NCBI GenBank assembly: GCA_032622095.1
Contig: CP136062.1
Coordinates: 137,162,351-137,226,350 of the forward strand
Length of the DNA: 64,000 nt
Direction of reading: 5' to 3'
Source of the DNA: Siphonodentalium dalli
Lineage: Eukaryota > Mollusca > Scaphopoda > Gadilida > Siphonodentaliidae
The notes beneath the pieces were generated by a model. It had not been told where the DNA came from, ran no database searches, and was given only the letters and a program-made list of their open reading frames with translations. Made by a program: the position numbers and the translations under genes. Positions 23,335 to 48,230 of the stretch are shown here, one piece after another; position 1 is the first letter of the stretch, and each line of letters starts with the position of its first letter.

Positions 23335-24853
23335 TCTAATGATAGAAGATCTCTCCAAAATTCTCAAAACAGCTGCAAAAAAGAGTATTCCGAAGTTTAA
23401 AGAGATGGTCAAGGTTAAGAAGAAGGAACGAGTTTGGTCAGAAGAGATTGCTGCAGCGGTGAAGATGTCTAAGAAAGCATTTTGGGAATGGAAGACGCAG
23501 GGACGACCTAAATCTCCAACAAATATATTATTGATGAATAGAAAAAGGACTTCGAGATTGCTGAGGAGTGCTCAAAGACTGGAGGCTGTTAACAATAGAA
23601 AGATGATGATTGAAGAGATTATACAGGCAAAGGGGAAAAACTCGTCACTATTCTTCAAATTAGTGAATAAACAGCGACAAAATAAATCAACAATCACTAA
23701 GGAACTATTTGTCAATGGAAGGACGCTATCATCAAGTGAAGATATCAGAGAGGGATGGGCAGAGTATTTTGCGGGTTTGGCATCTCCATTGGAGGATCCT
23801 TGATTCAATGATACATATTATAAAGAAGTTGACAAGGACATATTAGCGATTGAATCTCTCTGCAGTGATCAACATATGCCATTACCGACAATCTCTGAAA
23901 TTGAAGTTGAAAAGATAATAAGCAGTTTGAAGAATGGGAAATCAAAAGATCATCTAGGACTTCAAGCAGAGCATATCAAAATGGGAGGGCTGCCGGTCAT
24001 CAAGTTTTTAACTGACTTCATCAATCAATGTTTTGAACAGAAGAAAGTCCCAGATATTTTGAAGATTGGAGTTCTTACACCGGTACATAAGAAAGATGAA
24101 AAGATTCTACCAACAAAGTACAGAGGCATCACAGTCACTCCTATTGTCCTTAAAGTGATTGAAAATATTCTGATCAAAACATCATCAGAGAAATTAAACC
24201 TGACGCAATCCAAGCTTCAAAAAGGATTTACCAAAGGGGTGTCTGCAACTAATGTGAGTGTAATCATCACAGAAGTACTGAATGAAGCAAAGGAATCAAA
24301 GAAACCATTACATCTTGTTACGCTTGATACTCAGAAAGCTTTCGATGTTGTGCCACATACACATCTGATGAGAAGATTATATCTGGATGAGGTACAGGGA
24401 GATGAGTGGCTATTGATTAACAACATATATAAGGACATGACGAGAGTAAAATGGGAGAATGAACTGCCTCATCAATTTGATATACAACAGGGAGTGAGAC
24501 AAGGAGGAGTCCTATCAGCTGTACACTACAAGAGGTTCAACAATCCAATGCTGCTGAATATTGAGCGTCATTACAACGGTGCGAGGATCGGACATATTCA
24601 GATTCCACATACAACATGTGCTGATGATGTAGCACTCTTGTCTCATGATGGGTCGGAAATGAATGCAATGCTGAAGGAGGTGGAAGATTTCTCACGCTTA
24701 AATAGATACAAGATAAATCCGATGAAGAGTGCTGCCTTATCACTAAACATAAAAGATATACCTGCATTGGAGACTTTTATGTTTGAAGAAAAACCGATTG
24801 TTGCAGAAGATAAGTTAACACATGTTGGGCTGGAAAGAAATATTGGAGGAAAG
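23335..24853 (+). pseudogene. LINE retrotransposon, linker and reverse transcriptase
   Basis: This is the same frame as the endonuclease. A basic linker (about 155 residues) ends at one in-frame TGA (23801-23803). The frame then continues into a reverse transcriptase: KYRGITVTPIVLKVIE (fingers), LVTLDTQKAFDVV (motif A Asp), QGVRQGGVLSA (motif B) and TCADDVALLS (motif C, CADD in place of the usual Y/FADD). After VEDFSRLNRYKIN and KLTHVGLERN the frame is interrupted at 24854 by a MITE dimer. Only one nonsense codon over 500 codons shows that this copy is not ancient. Confidence 0.9.
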
Positions 24854-25853
24854 TTAAAGGCACGTGCGGCCTTAAAGGCACGTGCGGCCTTAATTGTTGA
24901 AAATATTCATATTTGTTCCAAACACCGTAAACAGAAAAACATTAAAACGCATACAGTTCCGTTCATATATACCATGACCATCGCGTAAACAGCATGTTAT
25001 CATACAGACCTACTATATTTTACCTAAGCAAGAGCCTGATTGTGTTACAGAAGACATCACAATGCTACTGGCTAATCACGCACAAATGGCATAAACGCTC
25101 TTTATTAGTTCCATATCAGGTATTCACCAACAAAGAACGCTCTTTATGTTTACCATCATAATATAAACAAACACCAGAAAAGTAACTTTTTATGCTTTTG
25201 TTTACATAACAATGGTCAAACATATGACCATAACATACTGTTTATTAGATATTTCTTATTTGTATACGGACAAAGTATATCTACATTTTGATGTTCTTTC
25301 TGTTTGTGGCGGTTTTTGACGGGTGGATATATTTTCACAGGATACCCACCGCCAAGGCCAACCGTGTCTTTAATTGTTGAAAATATTCATATTTGTTCCA
25401 AACACCGTAAACAGAAAAACATTAAAACGCATACAGTTCCGTTCATATATACCATGACCATCGCGTAAACAGCATGTTATCATAAAGACCTACTATATTT
25501 TACCTAAGCAAGAGCCTGAGTGTGTTACAGAAGACATCACAATGCTACTGGCTAATCGCGCACAAATGGCACAAACGCTCTTTATTAGTTCCATATCAGG
25601 TATTCACCAACAAAGAACGCTCTTTATGTTTACCATCATAATATAAACAAACACCAGAAAAGTTACTTTTTATGCTTTTGTTTACATAACAATGGTCAAA
25701 CATATGACCATAACATACTGTTTATTAGATATTTCTTATTTGTATACGGACAAAGTATATCTACATTTTTATGTTCTTTCTGTTTGTGGCGGTTTTTGAC
25801 GGGTGGATATATTTTCACAGGATACCCACCGCCAAGGCCAACCGTGTCTTTAA
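24854..25853 (+). mobile_element. TTAA MITE dimer inserted in the LINE reverse-transcriptase frame
   Basis: A stub of one terminus (24854-24871) is followed by a full copy (24872-25372), fused through a shared TTTAATTG junction to a second copy (about 25369-25853) that lacks its first terminal bases. TTAA is present at both outer ends (24854-24857 and 25850-25853). Collapsing to a single TTAA joins the LINE frame exactly (GGKL continues with NVDELIQ). The two copies differ at few positions, which points to replication, recombination or re-insertion within a copy. Confidence 0.9.
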
Positions 25854-26897
25854 ATGTTGATGAGTTAATCCAGAGAGGACGAAGAACTGTTTATGCGCCG
25901 ATGGGTGCGGGTCTACATGGAAGAAATGGTCTGGCTCCAAATGTATCAATTAATCTATGGAATGTTTATGTGCTGCCAAGAATGTTATACGGGATTGAAT
26001 GTGTCACATACAGTATGACTGATTTGAATTTGCTAGAAATTGATCAGAGAAAGGTGCTGAAACAGTTGCAGTATTTACCACCCAGGACTCCTAATGCTGC
26101 TGTTTATGCTTTGCTTGGCTGTCTATACCGATTGAGGCTGTTATCCACAAGAAGATGTTGTCCCTATTCTCTAGTATTATCCATAACAAGGGTTCTGTGG
26201 AAATCTCCATTGCCGAAAGACAGCTTGCTATGAAGAATTTGGACTCTACTAGCTGGTTTGTGTCTGTAAGAAAGGTTTTGTGGATGTACGAGTTGCCATC
26301 AGTTTTTGAAGTAATGGAAAGCCCACTTGATAAGAAGTCCTGGAAGGAGTTGGTAGACAAGAAGGTGCATGAGCTTTGGGAAGGGAGGATCAAGGAGGAT
26401 ATGAAGTTGAAATCTTGAACCCAGATACAGTACAGATTGGTTCTCCTCATCACTTATGGTTCAGTTTACACTCCAATGTTCATGATGTTAATTTGGCAGC
26501 AATAAAAGCAAGACTCCTGACTGGTACCTATACACTCCAGAGAAATAGATCTGTTTACAGTCGGCAAAAGCAGAGTTCGGTGTGTCAACTGTGTAAAGAT
26601 GGAGAAGAAACAAGGGAGCACTTTCTTACAGCCTGTAGACATGACCGAATGATTGATGCAAGAGAGAATGCAATCAGAAAACTGCAATCTATTATCCCTG
26701 ACTCTACTCTTACTAACATACTGGCAGATTCTAATCTACTAACTCAGCTCATATTGGACTGTTCAATGTCAGTAATAGCGGAGATGATAAACCTACACAT
26801 GGATCAGTTGGTGTTAAATTCTATTGAGATGTGGAGCAGACAATATATTGGAAGACTCCATAGCATCCGCTCCTCAATCCTTACCAGATGTCAGTAG
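25854..26897 (+). pseudogene. LINE retrotransposon, C-terminal region with zinc knuckle
   Basis: This continues the reverse-transcriptase frame (RTVYAPMGAGLHGRNGL, LYGIECVTY). Two indels follow, at about 26120-26130 and 26415, moving the frame each time. The last part carries the Cys/His motif CQLCKDGEETREHFLTACRH, a common C-terminal zinc-binding knuckle of I-group and Nimb-like LINEs, and ends RSSILTRCQ with a TAG. The region is needed for RNA binding in relatives, and here it is dead. Confidence 0.82.
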
Positions 26898-29794: not shown

Positions 29795-32305
29795 GGTCCG
29801 AATCGGCATCTCTGGTTTAGACTAGGTTTTATTCTAGACCAGGTTTAACTCCAGTTTAAACTAGGTTTAAGTAGGGTTTAAACTTGGTTTTACAGTAGTT
29901 AAACCAGGTTTATGGGAGTAAAACTGGGTTTTAGCGTACTTAAACCAAGTTTTGTGATAAACTCAGTTTAAGTTGAAACTAGGTTTTATTAACGTGATAA
30001 AGTTATGGTAATATTACTAATTGTTTGTGGTGAATTGGCTATATAATCATCAGTATAAGCTTATGTATATATGATTTATACGTACCATACGTCTCGCCTC
30101 GAACATACACCTTTAAATATACTTTGAAAAAAATTCAATGTTAAACCACCCTACCCCAGGTTTGACTAAAACCTAGTTTTTTGGGTTTAATTATTCGGCC
30201 GTTATTTTTCGCCCAATATTCATGTTGTTTCTTCGTGAATATGGGAGTGTTTATTTTGAATTGGGGGAGGCGTTTATGCGCGGGCGTTTGTCACTCAATG
30301 TAGATACAATAGAGTCTTAGTGGAATTCGGGGAGGCGATGTCGGTACTTATGAGATAAATTCTAACAAAATATGTGCCAGTGTGATGGATGATTTCTTGC
30401 TATATATGTCTGTTTGCAATTCGCTCGTTTTGATGTCGGTTTGGCGGCTTGGAGCATGGCGGGATCGGACTGATCAGATTGACACGTTAGACACGAACAT
30501 GACTTTTGAAACTGATTCCTTATTCACAAAAAAGGTCTCTTTCGGTCAATTTGACGCATGGGTTGGTGGCCCGCCCAAATACCCATCAGAGACACCCAGC
30601 CTTCACCCGGGGGAGGGTAACGGCCACCCTGAGGGGGTGGAGTATGGACTATTTTGGAGAACTGTACGGATTTCGGCCAATTTGATAGTATGGGTGGGTG
30701 GCTCGCCCCAAATAACCCATAGAAACACCCCACCCCTCACATCCGGGGGGGGGGGTACCACCCGAGGGGGTGAACGTGGGATGTGGACCATTTTCGAAAC
30801 TTGTAAGGATTTCGGCCAATTGACGGCATGGATGGATGGCCCGCTCAAATGTCCCATAGAAACAGCCCACCCCTGAACGCTGGGGGAACCAAACAGGAGG
30901 TGAAAATGGGGTATGGACCATTTTCGAGAACGGTAAGGATTTCGGTCAATTTTACGTCAGCAGTGTGCGTAGCCCGCTCCAACTACCCCCTAGAAACACC
31001 CTCACCCGGAAGTACCACCCCGAGGGGGTGAAATGGGGTATGGACCATTTTCGAGAACGGTGGGTGGCACATCCCAAATGCGCCCCATAGAAACACCCCA
31101 CCCCCACCCCGGACCCCATTTTCACCCGCTCGGGTAGAACCACCCGCGGTAAGGGTGGGGGTGTTTCTATGACTATATTTGAGGTCGGGCCGCCCAACAA
31201 TGACGTCATATTGGCCGAAATCCCTACCGTTCTCGATAACGGTCCATACCCCATTATATGGGGTATTTGGGGCGTGCCACCTACACATGCCGTAATATTA
31301 ACCAACAGGGGCATGTTTTTGCGAATAATGAATAAAATGCTCCATACCCCATTTTCACCCCAGCAGGGTGGTACCCTCCAGGGATGAGGGTATGGTGTCT
31401 ATATGGGATATTTGGAGCGGGCCACACACCCCTGTCGTCAAATTGGCCGAAATCCTTACCGTTCTCGAACATGGTTCATATCCCATCTTCACCCGAGGGT
31501 GGCGACACACCCCACCCCGCCCGGATGTGAGGGGTAGGGTGTTTATATGCGTTATTTGAGGTACCCTTCCCCGGGGGTGAGGGTTGGGGTGTTTCTATTC
31601 GGTATTTGGGCGTACCCAATTTCCACCTCCTCTGGTGGGACCCCTCCCCCCGGTGAGGGGTGGGTAGGGGTGGTTCTATGGTGTATTTTGATCGTGCCAC
31701 CCACTCCTGCTGCCAAATTAATTAGCCTAAATCCTTACCGTCCATACCCCTGTTATCCCGGGGTGAGGGGTGATGTTTCTATCGGGTATTATAGGCGAGC
31801 CACCCTTTCATGCCGTCAAATTCGCCGAAATCCTTCCCGTTCTCAAAAATGGTCCATACCCCATTTTCACCCGTCCGGATGGTATGGTCCCCCGGGGTGA
31901 TGGTGTTTCTATGGGGTATTTGTGGCGGGGCCCCACCTATGCCCTCAAGAGATATTTTGGAGTTCCAAAAGTCACGTTCGTCCATGATATTAGATAATAT
32001 CTAACCGTTATACAACAGACCGTGCATTCGTCGTGATTTCTCAAAGCGCACGGGTTATTCCCCTGATTAGGAGAGTATATAGCGACAACAGGTCGCTTGA
32101 CCGGACAATGAATTGACAAGCTTAGCGATAATAAACAGACAGACCACGCCTCCTATTCTTGCAATTGGACAAGTGTGGCCCACAGGTAACGCAATCGACC
32201 AAATCTATGTCGTCCCAGCGGTGGAGAAAAACTTGGTTTTACTACTAAACCCAGTTTAAACTGGTAGTTTAAACTAGGTCTAAACTGGAGATGCCGATTC
32301 GGACC
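29795..32305. mobile_element. Fold-back element with TTA duplication, 2.5 kb
   Basis: The inverted ends GGTCCGAATCGGCATCTC (29795) and its complement (ending 32305) are flanked by TTA on both sides (29792-29794 and 32306-32308). Next to each end are degenerate AAACTAGGTTTAA/AAACTGGTTT repeats (29813-30000 and 32230-32290). The centre is an inverted minisatellite (30530-31950). A 3-bp TTA target is what PIF/Harbinger elements use, so I infer a non-autonomous Harbinger-like fold-back element. There is no transposase frame. Confidence 0.8.
30530..31950. repeat. Head-to-head minisatellite, units of about 110-140 bp
   Basis: Units with ATTTCGGCCAATTTGA, CCCCATAGAAACACCCC and GGGTATGGACCATTTTCGAG run in plus orientation from 30530 to about 31130. 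They then run in reverse orientation (GTGTTTCTATGGGGTATTTG, CCGAAATCCTTACCGTTCTC, GGTCCATACCCC) to about 31950. All long frames on both strands here are translations of the repeat. The array forms the loop of the fold-back element. Confidence 0.85.
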
Positions 32306-32308
32306 TTA

Positions 32309-33467
32309 GTGCCTAATTTTATGAATATGTCATTCTTAAATGATCTTAATGATTTAAAATGGTTTCACTAGCAAACCATGTTCGGTACCGGTAACTCTGA
32401 AATTTATCTTGACATTCTTAGGAAATTTCAACACATACTTTAATAAGGAAATATATCTCTTGAAGTCCATTATAAGCTATATTTATTCCTTTGGTCATTT
32501 GAAATTTAGAAATTGTTTACAGATAACATCTATTAATCCGAGGACCATTGTGGTAAGTCTGCCCATTTATGGGTCAGACTTTTAAATGTTATCCTCGGTG
32601 CGATGGGCGAGTCTTATTACATCATCAAGACCACTTCTTCTTCTTTTTTTTATATATTTTATTAAATAAATTATAACGAAATGAAACTGAAATTAATCTT
32701 TCAAATTAACGTTTGACACTGTTTAGATATGTTCTCATATGTTTAAAATCGGCTGAATACTCTCAGGTGCCTAATAATCGTGATGGCCTAATAATGGTGA
32801 TGGATGGTGATTTATGCTGAAAATAATAATAGTGATGGCAATTTCACTCTATGTCTCAATGCTAAATAATAGTGATCATTGGAAATATTCTCCAAAATTA
32901 ATAATCGTGCTGACACTATTATTAGGCACCTGAGAGAACAATCTAAACTGTAATATCTTATGGTCCATTCAAATTGTAGGACCTTTTTGTAATATGTTTT
33001 TACCTCGCACCAAATAAATCTATCTATAACCTAGTTTAAAAAAAATCAATATAAAATAATAAAAAAAATTCTAATGGAATATACTCCAAAAAGGGAGGCC
33101 AGGGTACCTCGAATCTGTTTCCAAATTTCTTTTAAAAATACGCAATATAATGGGAAGCATTCGGACTCTAAAACACATGCACAGAGCAGTTCATCGATGA
33201 TTCACTTTATAATAAAGACCCAAGGTTAAATAAGTTGGTTGATATTATAAAATTGCAGCGGATAATCAGGACAAAATTTGGATCAATAAAAATCGCTTTC
33301 AAACATAACTGATGTAACATCACTAAAATACTCACTTGGTAGATGAAATATGTCTTCTCGCCATAATTAAATAATTTTGTTTCATTGACACGCAAATTGT
33401 TGGCAGATTACGTTGGATTTTGTTGCGACCACGCTGAAACCCAGCTAAATCAAAATGGCGAAGCGCG
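32309..33467. other. No gene seen apart from a small MITE
   Basis: AT-rich sequence. It contains a 28-bp near-palindrome at about 32551-32583 (AAGTCTGCCCATTTATGGG...) and the MITE at 32760-32936. Confidence 0.4.
32760..32936. mobile_element. Small fold-back MITE, 177 bp
   Basis: The ends CTCTCAGGTGCCTAATAAT and their complement ATTATTAGGCACCTGAGAG are perfect inverted repeats. The inside carries repeats of TAATAATCGTGATGG-type motifs. The target duplication is not clear, so the superfamily is unassigned. Confidence 0.8.
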
Positions 33468-34303
33468 TAGACTGGTACCCTGTCCCAACTCCTGCTACTC
33501 GCCCGTATGGACAGGAATAGGCTAAACAGTTAGTGGAACTTTGAATTGTGTTTCCGGTTTGTGAGATATTGTTTCAAAATAGAAAAGCACATTTCAACAT
33601 CGGTACGTTTTTCTTAATTTAATAATACAAGACGCAAGTATATAACTTTGACAACTACTCAATCAAATTGAATAGAGTGTTTTTCACAGGAATCGACTAA
33701 CCCCGATCAACGGCAATAAGTTAAATAGTGCGAAATCATGTTTTTGTAGCTTGGATATTTGGAAACTCTGATGTCAACAAACACCCCCGGTAACCGGTTA
33801 CATCAATTTTGTGTCGAAGTTTGCTGCCTCATGTCGCATTTTATTAACTAAATTCGTCGGGGATATATTTACGCTCATGTTGATACCAAAATTAACACAA
33901 GGGGTCAATGTGATTTGCCTGGGTGGACCTTTTACCATAAATTGCCAAACTTGGCTATACCGTCCCATGCTCTGACAAGTTGGTCAGTCTGTACTACATA
34001 CATTTAAGGGGTTTATTTACATTACTGATACTAACAGGTATCTCCTTCACACAGATATGTCAATATAAGTTGATGACGATAGTTTTATTTGTTCCAAATA
34101 AGTTTCGTGAGGTACTAGTAATCACCCCCCCCCCCCCCCGTGCACGGTTACATCAACATTGAAGAAGTTCGCTGCCTCATGTCTGATTATTTTATTTCGA
34201 TGTTTCGGCTATATCATTGTGGTCATTTTAGTACCAAAATCATCTATATGAGGCATATATTTTGTTTGCGTGAAGTGTTTTTGTGTCAAACGGGAAAATC
34301 TTA
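33468..34303 (+). repeat. Left arm of a 4-kb inverted-repeat structure (836 bp)
   Basis: It starts at about TAGACTGGTACCCTGTCCC and ends CGGGAAAATCTTA. It matches 36611-37446 in reverse complement along its whole length with scattered differences (for example CCGGTAACCGGTTACATCAA, and GGGGTTTATTTACATTACTG against its mirror). Poly-C of about 17 sits opposite poly-G of about 13. Arms this long suggest either a transposon with long terminal inverted repeats or an inverted duplication of a promoter region. Confidence 0.9.
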
Positions 34304-34547
34304 GTTGTCTGGGGAGCAACGGAGCTTGAGGATTAATATTACTAGTGCATATTATTTGTTGTTGTCTGTATGTCAGTATGGCTATTCATGTTTGACCATA
34401 CCAGTATATAAATTTTTTATAATAATTTTGAGTCTCAGCAAAATGTGTACTATATTGCATGTAAATAATTAAAAATAGTAGTAAATGAGAAAAAAACATG
34501 TTGCTATTATAGCATAGTACTAGTAATATGTTTTATATTTTGCAGAA

Positions 34548-34676
34548 ATGGACCGTACACCAAGTTATATATCAACGAGTGTCATTACAAAGGACAGAAA
34601 TGTAAAAGAAATCGGGATGTCAGCACCCCGACCAAACAAACACCACTCCGTGAGAAAAAAAGACAAAGTTTTTTGA
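34548..34676 (+). CDS. Possible small exon inside the inverted-repeat structure
   Basis: A good acceptor (TTTATATTTTGCAG) is followed two bases later by ATG and 42 open codons (MDRTPSYISTSVITKDRN..., ending KKDKVF) before TGA. The Lys-rich tail is soluble-looking. No family is recognised. It faces the opposite way to the RecQ relic. Confidence 0.35.
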   Translation: MDRTPSYISTSVITKDRNVKEIGMSAPRPNKHHSVRKKDKVF

Positions 34677-35335
34677 AATGCATATCATATTTTAGTGGTT
34701 ATTATTTTAAATACAATTTTATAATATATATGGATTAAATGGCTAACAGCTCTGAAATCAAGCTCTGGATAAGGAACCAACCAAGTCACAATCACTCGTA
34801 AATGCTCAATTTCGCAGTTGAAACTATTGGCTGGAGTTATGTGTCAGAAGATCTGACTTCAAATAGATGTATTTAAGATATTATTATGATCACAATAGTG
34901 TCTTTTGCGCCACAGGCGCCGGGATTCGAATGCTACGGCCCACAATAATAATACACCACGAGCTGTTGCTGTGCAGGTATTAGCGCTGCAGACGTTTTGT
35001 AAATTTAAATTAATGACATCTATATCTTTTATTCATTGTGTGATGTGATGAATGAATATATCTTAAATATAAAAAGTAACAACATGATCAGTCAGCACTG
35101 GAGTTCTCTCATTTTTACGAACAAATAAAATTATCACATCAAATCTGATCATAGAATATAACAGTACACAACCTGGCAGGATTTCATTCTTGTTCATTAT
35201 TAAATGGTGTCCTCTCTTGTTATTATTTATGTAATAATCAATGATGACGTTTTGTAACCGATTCAAATTGTATTGCACTCACATGTTTAATAATATGAAT
35301 GCTTATAATTTGGTTATGGAAATACATTATATCCA
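34677..35335. other. No gene seen
   Basis: AT-rich interior of the inverted-repeat structure, without exon signals that I trust. Confidence 0.4.
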
Positions 35336-36254
35336 TGTTTAGTTCTGTTTACGTACACTTTTGGGCTGTTGGGAGTGGAACTGCACAACACAGGCCCCAT
35401 CATGAATGTCAGTTTGCATCATTCCAAGCAGTCTCTTGGACAGTTCAGCTCCATACTCACACCAATGTAGCTTAGTGTATACTATGGTGAGCGGAAAGTG
35501 TTCCCTATCCAGTAATAGTTCTAGCAGAAGTGGCTTAAAAACAACATCGTAGGAACTTTCAGCGGTTGAGCCTGTTCTTGTCTTGTCTTCACCGACACTT
35601 TCACACTAGGACTCATCGATAACGTTGATATTATTGTTGTTGGGTTGTCCATTCCAAGCACCGTAGAGATTATCCCTTGGGTTTTTTTGCTGGCTGTGGC
35701 TGTGATTGCTAAGAATTTCACATCACCATCAAGATGGCTCCTAATGTCTCTTAGACACCGGTATTCTGGTCTGAAATCTGCTCCCCACTCCAGAACACAA
35801 TGTGCTTCATCCACAACAACGAATGTTTTATTCACATAGTTTGATATATTCCCTAAAGTTGACGCATGGAATAATGTTTTCTGGGTGTCCAATATAATAC
35901 GTAATATTCTCGTTTCTGATGAAACTGTCAGATCTTTGGAAACACATGAGTTTTGATTTTAATTTCGCGCACTCTTGTTCAATTAAATTGTTCAGTGGCA
36001 CAATGAGTATTAAGATACTGGATTTGTTATCGTCCACCTTAGCGAACAGTGGCAAAAGCTCGAAAATCAGAGACTTGACACATCATGTTGGGAGCACGTC
36101 CATAACGTCAGGACTGCGGAGGGCTACCAGACACTCAGTTTGCTTTGGCTTGAGATAGTTGATTTGTTTGTACAGTTGTTTGTTTAAACCTGCAAGGGCA
36201 ACCTTAGATGATAGGCTCTTGTTTAAAATGTCGATGTTGTTGATTTTCGTTTTC
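35336..36254 (-). pseudogene. RecQ-like DNA helicase relic with stop codon in the Walker A motif
   Basis: It opens after a good acceptor (TTTCTTTCAG) with KINNIDILNKSLSSKVALAG and LKPKQTECLVALRS (the RecQ motif 0). Next comes VLPT-stop-CVKSLIFELLP where T-G-x-G-K-S is expected, so both glycines of Walker A are lost. Downstream are PLNNLIEQ (motif Ia), VVVDEAHCVLEWGADFRPEY (DEAH box, motif II) and FLAITATASKKT (motif III). The start of helicase lobe 2 follows (FPLTIVYTKLHWCEYGAELS) and it stops at 35336. At least two frameshifts (about 35880 and 35560) add to the stop. It is non-functional and lies inside the 836-bp inverted repeats. Confidence 0.85.
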
Positions 36255-36610
36255 CTGAAAGAAAAGAAAATGTCAAAACATTTGTCAAATTGTCAATAAA
36301 TGTGAATCATATTGGTCCATGTCTGGAAGGGTTGGATACATTGAATGTTACCATGTTAATGAAGTGGTCACCTCAGTTGGAAAGTATCCTATGTGTTGTA
36401 TGTTTACAGATATGACACTTTCAAACTGACATGGTGAATGTTCAAAACAAAGCCCAAAAAGTTTTTAAAAACAACCGTAAGTGAGAAAACCAATACCACA
36501 AAATATTAACACTCACACCAGGTTGTGGGATAATAGTGACCAGTAGGCTTAAATATTACTAGTCTTAGCTAGGTCAACTAGCTTAGGTTATAATAATATA
36601 ATTTTAAAAA

Positions 36611-37446
36611 AATAAGATTTTCCCGTTTGACACAAAACACCTCACGCAAACAAAATATATCTGCCTCATATAGATGATTTTGGTACTAAAAATGACCACA
36701 ATAATATAGCCGAAACATCGAAATAAAATAATCAGACATGAGGCAGCAAACTTCTTCAATGTTGATGTAATCGTGCACGGGGGGGGGGGGTGATAACTAG
36801 TACCTCGCGAAACTTATTTGGAACAAATAAAACTATCGTCATCAACTTATATTGACATATCTGTGTGAAGGAGATACCTGTTAGTATCAGTAATGTAAAT
36901 AAACCCCTTAAATGTATGTAGTACAGACTGACGAACTTGTCAGAACATGGGACGGTATAGCCAAGTTTGGCAATTTATGGTAAAAGGTCCACCCAGGCAA
37001 ATCACATTGACCCCTTGTGTTAATCTTGGTATCAACATGAGCGTAAATATATCCCCGACGAATTTAGTTTATAAAATGCGACATGAGGCAGCAAACCTCG
37101 ACACAAAATTGATGTAACCGGTTACCGGGGGTGTTTGTTGACATCAGAGTTTCCAAATATCCAAGCTACAAAAACATGATTTCGCATTATTTAACATATT
37201 TCCGTTGATCGGGGTTAGTCGATTCCTGTGAAAAACACTCTATTCAATTTGATTGAGTAGTTGTCAAAGTTATATACTTGCGTCTTGTATTATTAAATTA
37301 AGAAAAACGTACCGATGTTGAAATGTGCTTTTCTATTTTAAAACAATATCTCACAAACCGGAAACACAATTCAAAATTCCACTTTCTGTTTAGCCTATTC
37401 CTGTCCCTACGGGCGAGTAGCAGGAGTTGGGACAGGCTACCGTCTA
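36611..37446 (-). repeat. Right arm of the 4-kb inverted-repeat structure
   Basis: Reverse complement of 33468-34303, from AAGATTTTCCCGTTTGACAC to GGGACAGGCTACCGTCTA. The differences between the arms (for example GACGAACTTGTCAGAACATG here against its mirror) show that they have diverged slightly since formation or last conversion. Confidence 0.9.
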
Positions 37447-38841
37447 GAAGCGAGGAAAGAGTTATGGAGTGCACATGCGCCGTTCTCAAAATCTACTTCC
37501 GTCGTATACGGCGTGGCGTGTCCGTCAGTCTTCTCCTCAACATTGGGTCAAGGTTTCTCGTATTTCCGTGGTCTCCAATGATCATGTCCGTTTAGATAAC
37601 TAGTAATCACCGACCCACCACTTCAAATGTTCTGGTTACAAAACGTCGAAGCGGACATCGAAAGTGGAACCGGACTATCGATTGTGCAGCTTTGTTGAGA
37701 AGAGTGTGTATCAATTTGGTGCAGATCGGCGCTAATTTTGTTTATCAATTTTGGTGACCCTCTCCACTTCAGTGCACCCCTAGCTCGAATGACGACACCT
37801 TTAAGCCACACAATTAGACGTCTGATATCATGGAGATGATTATGTATACGTTTGGTGGTAATCGGCGACTAAACAAATTCTTTATCAACTTTACACGAAA
37901 AGACTCGTTCTTGGAAGTTTGAGTATTTAGAAAACTCCTATTCCTTATCTGACAAAAATAAAGAGCGTTCATCTCAATTCTGTGGGAAAGTTGGATCAAC
38001 TAGAAACTGATATGATTGTCGCAGTATATATACAAATCCTGTAGATAGGTATTTCGTGTATTTATTGACCTATCTGATTCCAAATTACACAGACACCAAG
38101 AGAATATATTTCATTCAGGAGTCCCGAACATTGTAAGTATGGAAAACAATATGTATATAATAGTTTATTATATGACTATCGCCCCCATACCACTTTATTA
38201 AAGTGGTAAGTGGTAATTCACGACCAACGGATCAGCTAAAGTTTGATACGTCACACCCTTCTCTATCTTGCATGTTGCGCATTTCCGTAAAAAGCCGGAC
38301 TATTTATTACCGTATACAATGTTAGGCCTACAATTCATTGTTCATTCTTGTTACTACTCATGTAACAGAAATTGTGCTTTTTAAATAAAAAATATGCATG
38401 TCAAATAATAAATCTGTTATCGTTGCAGTGAATTGATCTGGGCTTCGCATCACGTCTCGTTGAAGAGTTCGATGTGTATATACTAGTTTATTATATGACT
38501 ATGAATATTCTTTCCTAAATACCACTATTGTTTGACGATCTAATCCATATCGTCGGATCACACTGAGTGAGATTTCCCCGGATCAAATCAGATCACACTC
38601 CTACGGAAATTGCCGAGATGAGCCGAATTAACGACGACGAACTATTTATCCGTTAAAAATAGACTACGTAACCAGGTACGCAGTGGCTGTGTTCGTTCTC
38701 GCCCCCCTTATTACCGGTAAGAAATTTAAACTGCTGCTCATGCGTAGACCGGAAAAGGGTACGTTCCTTTTGTCCCCGTACAGTTCCGGGTAATATTTTT
38801 GTTATTAACTTTCGTCTGCTAATGTTCAGTACGCATCCTGA
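37447..38841. other. No gene; dispersed repeats upstream of Crypton copy 1
   Basis: 37745-37875 is a member of the 4870-5165 repeat family. 38155-38310 and 38488-38700 are diverged copies of one leader-like segment (TTATATGACTAT...GGACTATTTAT). The second of these is also repeated at 40900-41080 before Crypton copy 2, which suggests it is the 5' region of the element. Confidence 0.55.
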
Positions 38842-46787: not shown

Positions 46788-48230
46788 CTATCCAGACTTG
46801 TAAGCTGCTCTTTCCCAAACGTTAATAAAATTTCTTGGTATGGCAGCCGAATCTGTGTGTGTAAACATCAAACAGTCCACTCTGCTCTCGAACACATCTC
46901 CGTGAATTAAGGGGCCACTTCCATCATCATCTCTGATATGGAGAAGTTTGAAAGGCATCGGGGAAATTGACTTCACAGCTACAGCAGACGACAAAGAGTC
47001 ATCCGCCGAGGTGTTCGCATCTGTATCGATAGTTGAACTCTTGGATAGTGTCCCAGCTAGATCTTGATATCTAATCAGATTTTGAGTTGGGCATTTGTAG
47101 TTTATATATAGGTTCAACGGCAAGGTGCCTGGTTTGTCTTTAGTGAAGCAATTTCGGATGGTGTTGTGTCGTACTTTCTTCCCATGGTCAGCACGCCATT
47201 CTCGTATCATTTTCATATCTTCTGCTGTGAGTGTTCTTGATTGAGGCTTATCCAATAAGTCGACGTCCTCAAAAGACATATGACCATCTGGAACGGAGTA
47301 ATATGCCTTTCTATTAGTGAAGTAATGGAGACCACAACTAGTTAGTTTTTTCATATGCTCGACCTGAAGACAACTGAAGAGCTGACTAACTTCTAAAACA
47401 TCGGGCATAGGATTTCTGGACCGCAACAGTGCAAACATGTTTTCACACACAAGAGTGAGAATTGAGGACAGTTCCGTGGTATACTCTGGGTTGAATCGAC
47501 CACAAAACAACTTTATTTTTTCAATTCCATCTTTGATCATGTGAACACTCCTGATTGTTTTTGAAGACGGTGTGCCATCAGGTCCTTGCAGAACGGCCTT
47601 ATTTGTCCCAGTTTTTGACTTAACTTCAGAAATAATTTCATCATCAAGACAGGTAGTTACTTGATCCATGTTTGCAATGGCTTCTTCTAAACTGAAATGT
47701 GGCTTTGGTTTGTTTGGCATATGAATGCCAAACGTATGATCCAGAAGAAATAGAGCCTCGAAATATCTCAGCAGTCCAGTTGTTGAAAGGGCAACCACTT
47801 TGACCTGTGCAACTGCTGCATCGCACACTATGAGTGTTTTCTGGTAGTTGAATAGTATTGCTGAGGGCTGTTTAAATGACGTTTTTAAGCCATCCAATTC
47901 CTCTGCTTTCCCTGTGCCACAAAGTGTGGAAAGATCACATGATTCGCTGTTATATAGAAGGATGGAGCCGGTTGCACAATCAGTCACTGCAACTGCCGTC
48001 CCACAGCAATCCACTGCAAGTAGGTCCCGATTGGCATTATTGGCAATGCATTCCGATTTCTGCTCAGTATGTCTGTCATATGACACAAGTCCTCCCTTAT
48101 CACCTGTAACAACAGCAAATATCTTGTTTTCATTACTGCATAATGACGTGACGCACGACCCACTCTCCATAGGAAATCGATAAGTAACTTCTGCTTTGAT
48201 GTGGAAACCATTACAACCAATATTCAGCAT
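46788..48230 (-). CDS. 480-codon open frame of the NHL/transposase-like relic
   Basis: This is the longest open frame of the window. Its ATG is probably internal, because codons upstream (ISFHKIV) are open and resemble the expected lead-in to MLNIGCNG. It ends NVWERAAYKSG-TAG. Staying open for 480 codons while flanking parts are shifted means the damage is recent or this part is still selected. N-terminal half propeller-like, C-terminal half transposase-like. Confidence 0.6.
   Translation of the reverse strand: MLNIGCNGFHIKAEVTYRFPMESGSCVTSLCSNENKIFAVVTGDKGGLVSYDRHTEQKSECIANNANRDLLAVDCCGTAVAVTDCATGSILLYNSESCDLSTLCGTGKAEELDGLKTSFKQPSAILFNYQKTLIVCDAAVAQVKVVALSTTGLLRYFEALFLLDHTFGIHMPNKPKPHFSLEEAIANMDQVTTCLDDEIISEVKSKTGTNKAVLQGPDGTPSSKTIRSVHMIKDGIEKIKLFCGRFNPEYTTELSSILTLVCENMFALLRSRNPMPDVLEVSQLFSCLQVEHMKKLTSCGLHYFTNRKAYYSVPDGHMSFEDVDLLDKPQSRTLTAEDMKMIREWRADHGKKVRHNTIRNCFTKDKPGTLPLNLYINYKCPTQNLIRYQDLAGTLSKSSTIDTDANTSADDSLSSAVAVKSISPMPFKLLHIRDDDGSGPLIHGDVFESRVDCLMFTHTDSAAIPRNFINVWERAAYKSG

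Follow-up and report, generated by a model that had tools for sequence, protein, structure and literature searches.

A decayed copy of a probable DNA transposon whose longer form pairs a DUF6589 gene with a RecQ-family helicase gene

Helicase genes have already been described in several DNA transposons. Academ carries a RecQ helicase (PMC3627910), and AcademH, which according to the title of Kojima 2020 occurs in animals and fungi, encodes a helicase and has target duplications of 9 or 10 bp, those of AcademX being 3 or 4 bp (PMC10045372, citing Kojima 2020 for the helicase). Kolobok elements have 4-bp TTAA duplications and 5'-RR termini; within this TTAA superfamily KolobokH, reported only from fungi, encodes a RecQ helicase downstream of its transposase domain, and the rhodophyte Kolobok-1_CCri has a RecQ on the complementary strand (PMC9587614). 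Helitrons are without terminal inverted repeats and without target duplication, and the RecQ helicase genes and Y' elements of fungal subtelomeres are multicopy and telomere-linked (PMC4522978). All of these descriptions are taken from passages of the papers cited. Because Academ, AcademH and KolobokH have been described with a helicase, DNA transposons with a RecQ gene were already a known kind, and the first-pass annotation of the locus treated here, which had taken such an element for a novelty, was anticipated in print.

The locus lies in a window of 64 kb, i.e., the whole stretch of DNA that was analysed, and its features are as follows (positions are those of the window).

33460..33467: left target-site duplication, GAAGCGCG
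33468-37446: the window element, 4 kb, with inverted arms and fixed outer ends
33468..34303, plus strand: left terminal inverted repeat, starting TAGACTGGTACCCTGTCCC
33479..33515: subterminal inverted motif CCTGTCCC ... TGGACAGG, a candidate transposase-binding site from a motif search in the arms
34304..34760, plus strand: 457-bp segment adjoining the left arm, common to non-autonomous copies and containing a candidate small exon (ATG about 34548)
34997..35062, minus strand: last part of the intron that precedes the motif V exon of the RecQ gene (a match 22 residues long at 95%, by tblastn with the L029 frame)
35354..36292, minus strand: remains of the RecQ gene's first helicase exon, with a frameshift and a stop in Walker A
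36613..37446, minus strand: right terminal inverted repeat, starting TAGACGGTAGCCTGTCCC as read from its outer end
37447..37454: right target-site duplication, GAAGCGAG

We read this structure, at a probability of roughly 0.85, as a copy, decayed and internally deleted, of a class II (DNA) transposon whose terminal inverted repeats measure about 835 bp, whose duplications are 8 bp long and whose longer form pairs a DUF6589 gene with a RecQ gene. The inverted arms that the first-pass annotation had placed around the RecQ-like sequence are real and collinear, and their outer ends fall exactly where it had put them, at 33468 (TAGAC...) and 37446 (...GTCTA). In inverted orientation, the arms are identical at 97.5% of ungapped columns (96.7% by BLAST), and they are made up of collinear pairs of 663 nt at 98%, 114 nt at 93%, and then 38, 27 and 28 nt. 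A target duplication, looked for immediately outside these ends, was found in the form of 8-bp flanks that are alike but imperfectly so, with 7 of 8 bases equal between the left and right copies.

The left arm was used as a DNA query against the assembly (2.2 Gb in nine contigs), yielding 294 candidates, 40 of which were scored, two of them being the window's own arms; all 40 matches span the query from position 1 to at least position 832 of 836. Stretches of ~10 kb (L009-L028) were fetched around 20 of the 38 scored places that lie outside the window, and 18 of these stretches contain a second, inverted arm with the same fixed ends, the other two (L024 and L027) showing no second arm within about 9.7 kb. 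Every one of the 18 two-armed copies lies between exact direct repeats of 8 bp, and the inclusion of two RecQ-bearing copies described below (L029+L033 and L030) brings the exact duplications to 20 of the 20 two-armed copies read outside the window. The 18 copies have in common with the window element both arms and, adjoining one of these, the 457-bp segment, which is present in every copy at 87-93% (for 411 bp only in L026). Within this shared segment, a 42-codon ATG frame begins on the plus strand at about 34548, right after TTGCAG as judged by eye. Of the RecQ-like relic and the small exon that had been proposed for opposite strands of the interior, the relic is borne out, and the exon is at most a putative coding frame.

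Most of these copies are of a similar size to the window element (3.7-4.0 kb in 16 of 18), the outliers being L010 at 9.0 kb, due to a nested LINE, and L014 at 5.4 kb. The two open reading frames of L010 (691 and 468 aa) were considered as the genes of an autonomous element and rejected, as by eye they resemble LINE-type reverse transcriptase and endonuclease sequence; L010:690-9720 is a copy of the family in which a LINE-like insertion carrying both frames is nested. A 363-aa frame in L027 was likewise rejected as a gene of the element, as it looks by eye like flanking sequence. The 20 opened stretches have neither the RecQ stretch of the window nor a match to any RecQ or DUF6589 exon, and the 18 two-armed copies are a non-autonomous family. 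The bases around their duplications are non-random, with C at -3 in 10 of the 18 copies and G at +10 in 14, which amounts to a weak symmetrical preference.

This copy family also bears on what the arms are. The alternative that had been offered to a transposon with long inverted ends was that the 5' region of a gene, here a host RecQ-like gene with the arms as its promoter, had been copied in the opposite orientation; the start of the RecQ gene just inside one arm of the RecQ-carrying copies is in keeping with this. That alternative, along with the idea of single arms serving as ordinary promoters upstream of RecQ genes, is scarcely credible in light of the opened stretches: in 18 of 20 the arms form an inverted pair, their ends are fixed and the 8-bp duplications are exact, and RecQ sequence occurs in 0 of 20. 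It is the transposon proposed by the first-pass annotation, with further pairs of arms elsewhere in the genome, that emerges from these comparisons.

The regularity of the family extends inward from the termini. When no more than one change is tolerated in each half, 40 of 40 arms, representing 20 elements including that of the window, have CCTGTCCC near position 12 and the inverse of this motif, GGGACAGG, near position 41. A diverged relative on contig C7 (L034) has a candidate right end, TAGTCTCGTACCCTGACTC, with CCTGACTC at 12 and GAGTCAGG at 32, so that its letters differ from those of the window's family and its plan is the same. We infer this right end of the L034 element from sequence; the left end and the duplication were not found in the stretches read, which include the 6.5 kb to the left of L034. 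That the ends might act as folded hairpins was also considered, but the folding z-scores of the window's arms are weak (-0.2 and -1.0; the L029 left end has -1.8), though the L034 end folds well (-4.1). Because the hairpin is weak in the window's arms, the inverted subterminal motif is better read as a putative binding site.

The RecQ sequence within the window element is a remnant. The minus strand from 36292 to 35354 is covered by tblastn matches to the exons of related copies, and the core in translation, DEAHCVLEWGADFRPEYRCLRDIR, has a Pfam match to DEAD (2.5e-6) and, among the solved structures of the PDB, matches to chains of RecQ, RECQ5, WRN and BLM, down to 4.9e-14. Its Walker A is broken by a stop, and its reading frame is also shifted. 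The helicase-core exon is the only one of the helicase-core and zinc-binding exons to have been kept, and tblastn found no motif V exon, zinc-binding exon or DUF6589 gene in the window element.

Elsewhere in the window, a weak DUF6589-like match lies outside the element on the minus strand (39431-39336, 32 residues, 41%, E 0.008). A plus-strand frame at 23876-24988 is a LINE-type relic of a reverse transcriptase (RVT_1 7.1e-25), the end of which is overlapped by two tandem copies, 98% alike, of a 480-bp unit (24890-25860). A G+C-rich, minisatellite-like region with a unit near 130 bp (30638-31934) lies in the window's one 2-kb bin of 50% G+C, and the longest ATG/GTG/TTG frame listed, of 480 aa on the minus strand (46788-48230), has no Pfam match at 0.01.

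Searches with the interior of the window element (34761-36609) returned 22 candidates, including a handful of other substantial copies. On C6, two stretches fetched as neighbours (L029+L033) contain a copy in which the arms enclose 11.4 kb, and TTCTATGA is duplicated on both sides. One strand of this copy has RecQ exons with Walker A LPTGYGKS, DEAHC and motif V FSTIALGMGCD, and a further exon with motif VI and the zinc-binding domain (PF16124 RecQ_Zn_bind, 1e-9), while the opposite strand has a 362-aa frame that matches Pfam DUF6589 at 9.3e-21. RecQ therefore belongs to the longer form of the element, as is implied by the earlier suggestion that the transposon carries it. The search for an intact helicase between the arms succeeded in part: the exons are there in the 11.4-kb copy, but it is defective, its first RecQ exon (exon A) being frameshifted. 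Its DUF6589 frame, on L033, starts at residue 279 of its relative, and no complete DUF6589 gene was found among the copies of the window's family that were read. Another RecQ-bearing copy, L030 on C1, is shorter and is flanked by the duplication ATACACAA. On C7, a different fate is evident in L031 (G000:C7:181914000-181923999), a transposon piece turned into a satellite-like tandem array, the 2,421-bp unit of which consists of one arm and the RecQ exon; four long matches to the RecQ stretch are listed in it, and two successive units that were compared are 99% identical.

The L034 relative has longer frames for both genes. Its DUF6589 frame is 630 aa (2.9e-38), and opposed to it is a RecQ gene with a 301-aa exon (DEAD 1.9e-19), a motif V exon and a zinc-binding exon (RecQ_Zn_bind 5.7e-7). 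The 301-aa exon matches TIGR00614 at 3.4e-31, which falls below the whole-protein cut-off of that model because a single exon, and not a whole protein, was compared. As PF00270 and PF16124 occur in separate exons of both L029 and L034, the encoded protein has the helicase core and the zinc-binding domain of the RecQ family.

The association of the two genes is not confined to these copies. A protein search with the DUF6589 piece gave 52 matches in the genome (86 candidates), and the DUF6589 Pfam model gave 90 (102 of 196 candidates scored); RecQ_Zn_bind had 14 (67 candidates). Ten of these 14 lie 1.1-6.5 kb from a DUF6589 match, tail to tail every time, where the share of the genome within 20 kb of the listed DUF6589 loci is about 0.12%; the remaining four have none of the listed DUF6589 matches within 4 Mb. 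Since five of the ten pairs are in one cluster on C2 (G000:C2:42568753-43260387, 0.7 Mb, with a near-constant gap of 6.5 kb), which may have arisen by local duplication or local transposition, the ten loci are not ten independent events. Besides these five, two pairs are on C3, and C5 and C7 have one each among the pairs other than that of L034. Merging within 20 kb leaves 64 DUF6589 loci, most of which lack an adjacent RecQ_Zn_bind match.

When L034 is compared with the window's family, change is greatest at third codon positions and least at second positions in both genes. The differences at positions 1/2/3 are 103/63/184 of 349 in DUF6589, and 76/51/113 of 192 and 65/45/93 of 153 in the RecQ exons. 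Synonymous rates are saturated over this distance and give no ratio, so the argument for selection is made from these counts, which suggest that both proteins were kept by selection at the protein level while the families diverged. The pairing and the counts together bear on whether RecQ has no role in transposition, a non-autonomous element having happened to pick up part of a RecQ gene of the host. The window relic, being one exon and part of the next intron and absent from all 20 stretches opened by the arm, is what such a capture could leave behind. We nonetheless consider chance capture improbable, in that the same two genes stand tail to tail at ten loci (five in the one cluster), and although residues differ by about 36% in DUF6589 and 48% in the RecQ exon, it is the third positions that changed most.

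The reading of the window structure as a deleted DNA transposon copy thus draws on fixed ends, 8-bp duplications and dispersal for the family, and, for the gene pair, on its presence, with damage to each gene, within a single element that has matching ends and a duplication, and on recurrence of the tail-to-tail pair at ten loci. The two genes of the longer element face each other, the DUF6589 gene starting close to one end and the RecQ-family helicase gene, which contains introns, close to the other. Based on this linkage, the DUF6589 gene is probably the transposase. Its protein would bind the inverted subterminal motif (CCTGTCCC...GGGACAGG), cut the ends and join them to the target with staggered 8-bp cuts, while the RecQ motor might open the ends or aid the repair of the donor gap. 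Deleted copies without one or both genes, such as that of the window, would be mobilised in trans. Other sources were of little help regarding DUF6589: sequence searches of the PDB yielded one weak hit, on a chain of a nuclear hormone receptor (0.0024), and another at E 2.2, scans for relatives in viral contigs with DUF6589 found none, and none of the papers searched, to which this statement is confined, mentions the domain.

As regards known systems, the element resembles AcademH in being a DNA transposon with a helicase, as seen in the RecQ exons of L029 and L034, RecQ being the helicase named for Academ in the passages cited. We rate at somewhat better than even the chance that it is a member of the AcademH lineage, i.e., a routine new family in which DUF6589 is the Academ transposase and the duplication happens to be 8 bp. 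The RecQ of Academ (PMC3627910), the AcademH helicase in animals and fungi (PMC10045372) and the overall plan all fit with this, whereas the duplications are 8 bp long in every one of the 20 two-armed copies read outside the window, which differs from the 9 or 10 bp given for AcademH (PMC10045372). Membership in AcademH is compatible with the mechanism proposed above; the question is one of classification, with Academ known here by description. The nuclease of the sister Academ lineage of AcademH we take to be XPG; the XPG_I matches (7 genome-wide, 12 candidates) are at least 9.9 Mb from any listed DUF6589 match, so that the nuclease-bearing sister lineage lends membership no support. An 8-bp target-site duplication is a feature of hAT elements, and that length is found here; hAT was rejected, as there are no hAT domains, the Pfam matches of the 630-aa frame being DUF6589 and a weak, unrelated YkoP (0.02). 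Helitrons were rejected on the presence of inverted repeats and target duplications.

A Kolobok-type element, whether KolobokH or a relative of the rhodophyte Kolobok, is very unlikely. RecQ within a DNA transposon is common to both, and the opposite-strand position is that of Kolobok-1_CCri (PMC9587614), but the duplications here are varied, 8 bp long and not TTAA, the termini are TAGAC, beginning TA and not RR, and the genes are on opposite strands, tail to tail, so that the TTAA, the 5'-RR termini and the downstream RecQ of KolobokH, itself reported from fungi only (PMC9587614), are all lacking. The RecQ genes and Y' elements of fungal subtelomeres are likewise multicopy; telomere linkage characterises them, and the passages on them do not include long inverted ends or target duplications.

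We hold it less likely than not that the DUF6589-RecQ elements form a superfamily of their own among eukaryotic DNA transposons, defined by 8-bp duplications, TAG termini, an inverted 8-bp motif that starts ~12 bp inside the end and an obligate pairing of transposase and helicase, tail to tail. If so, the many uncharacterised DUF6589 genes would be transposases, and RecQ would be a co-evolved part of the transposition machine. DUF6589, a protein family of unknown function, is now linked to a mobile element with known ends, a known duplication length and a recurrent RecQ partner, and the reason why certain DNA transposons encode a RecQ motor of their own becomes testable with real ends and real genes; extra RecQ-like genes in such genomes may be transposon genes, and not host repair genes. 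Relative to the published descriptions, as given in the passages cited, it is the 8-bp duplication, the tail-to-tail plan and the link to DUF6589 that set this element apart.
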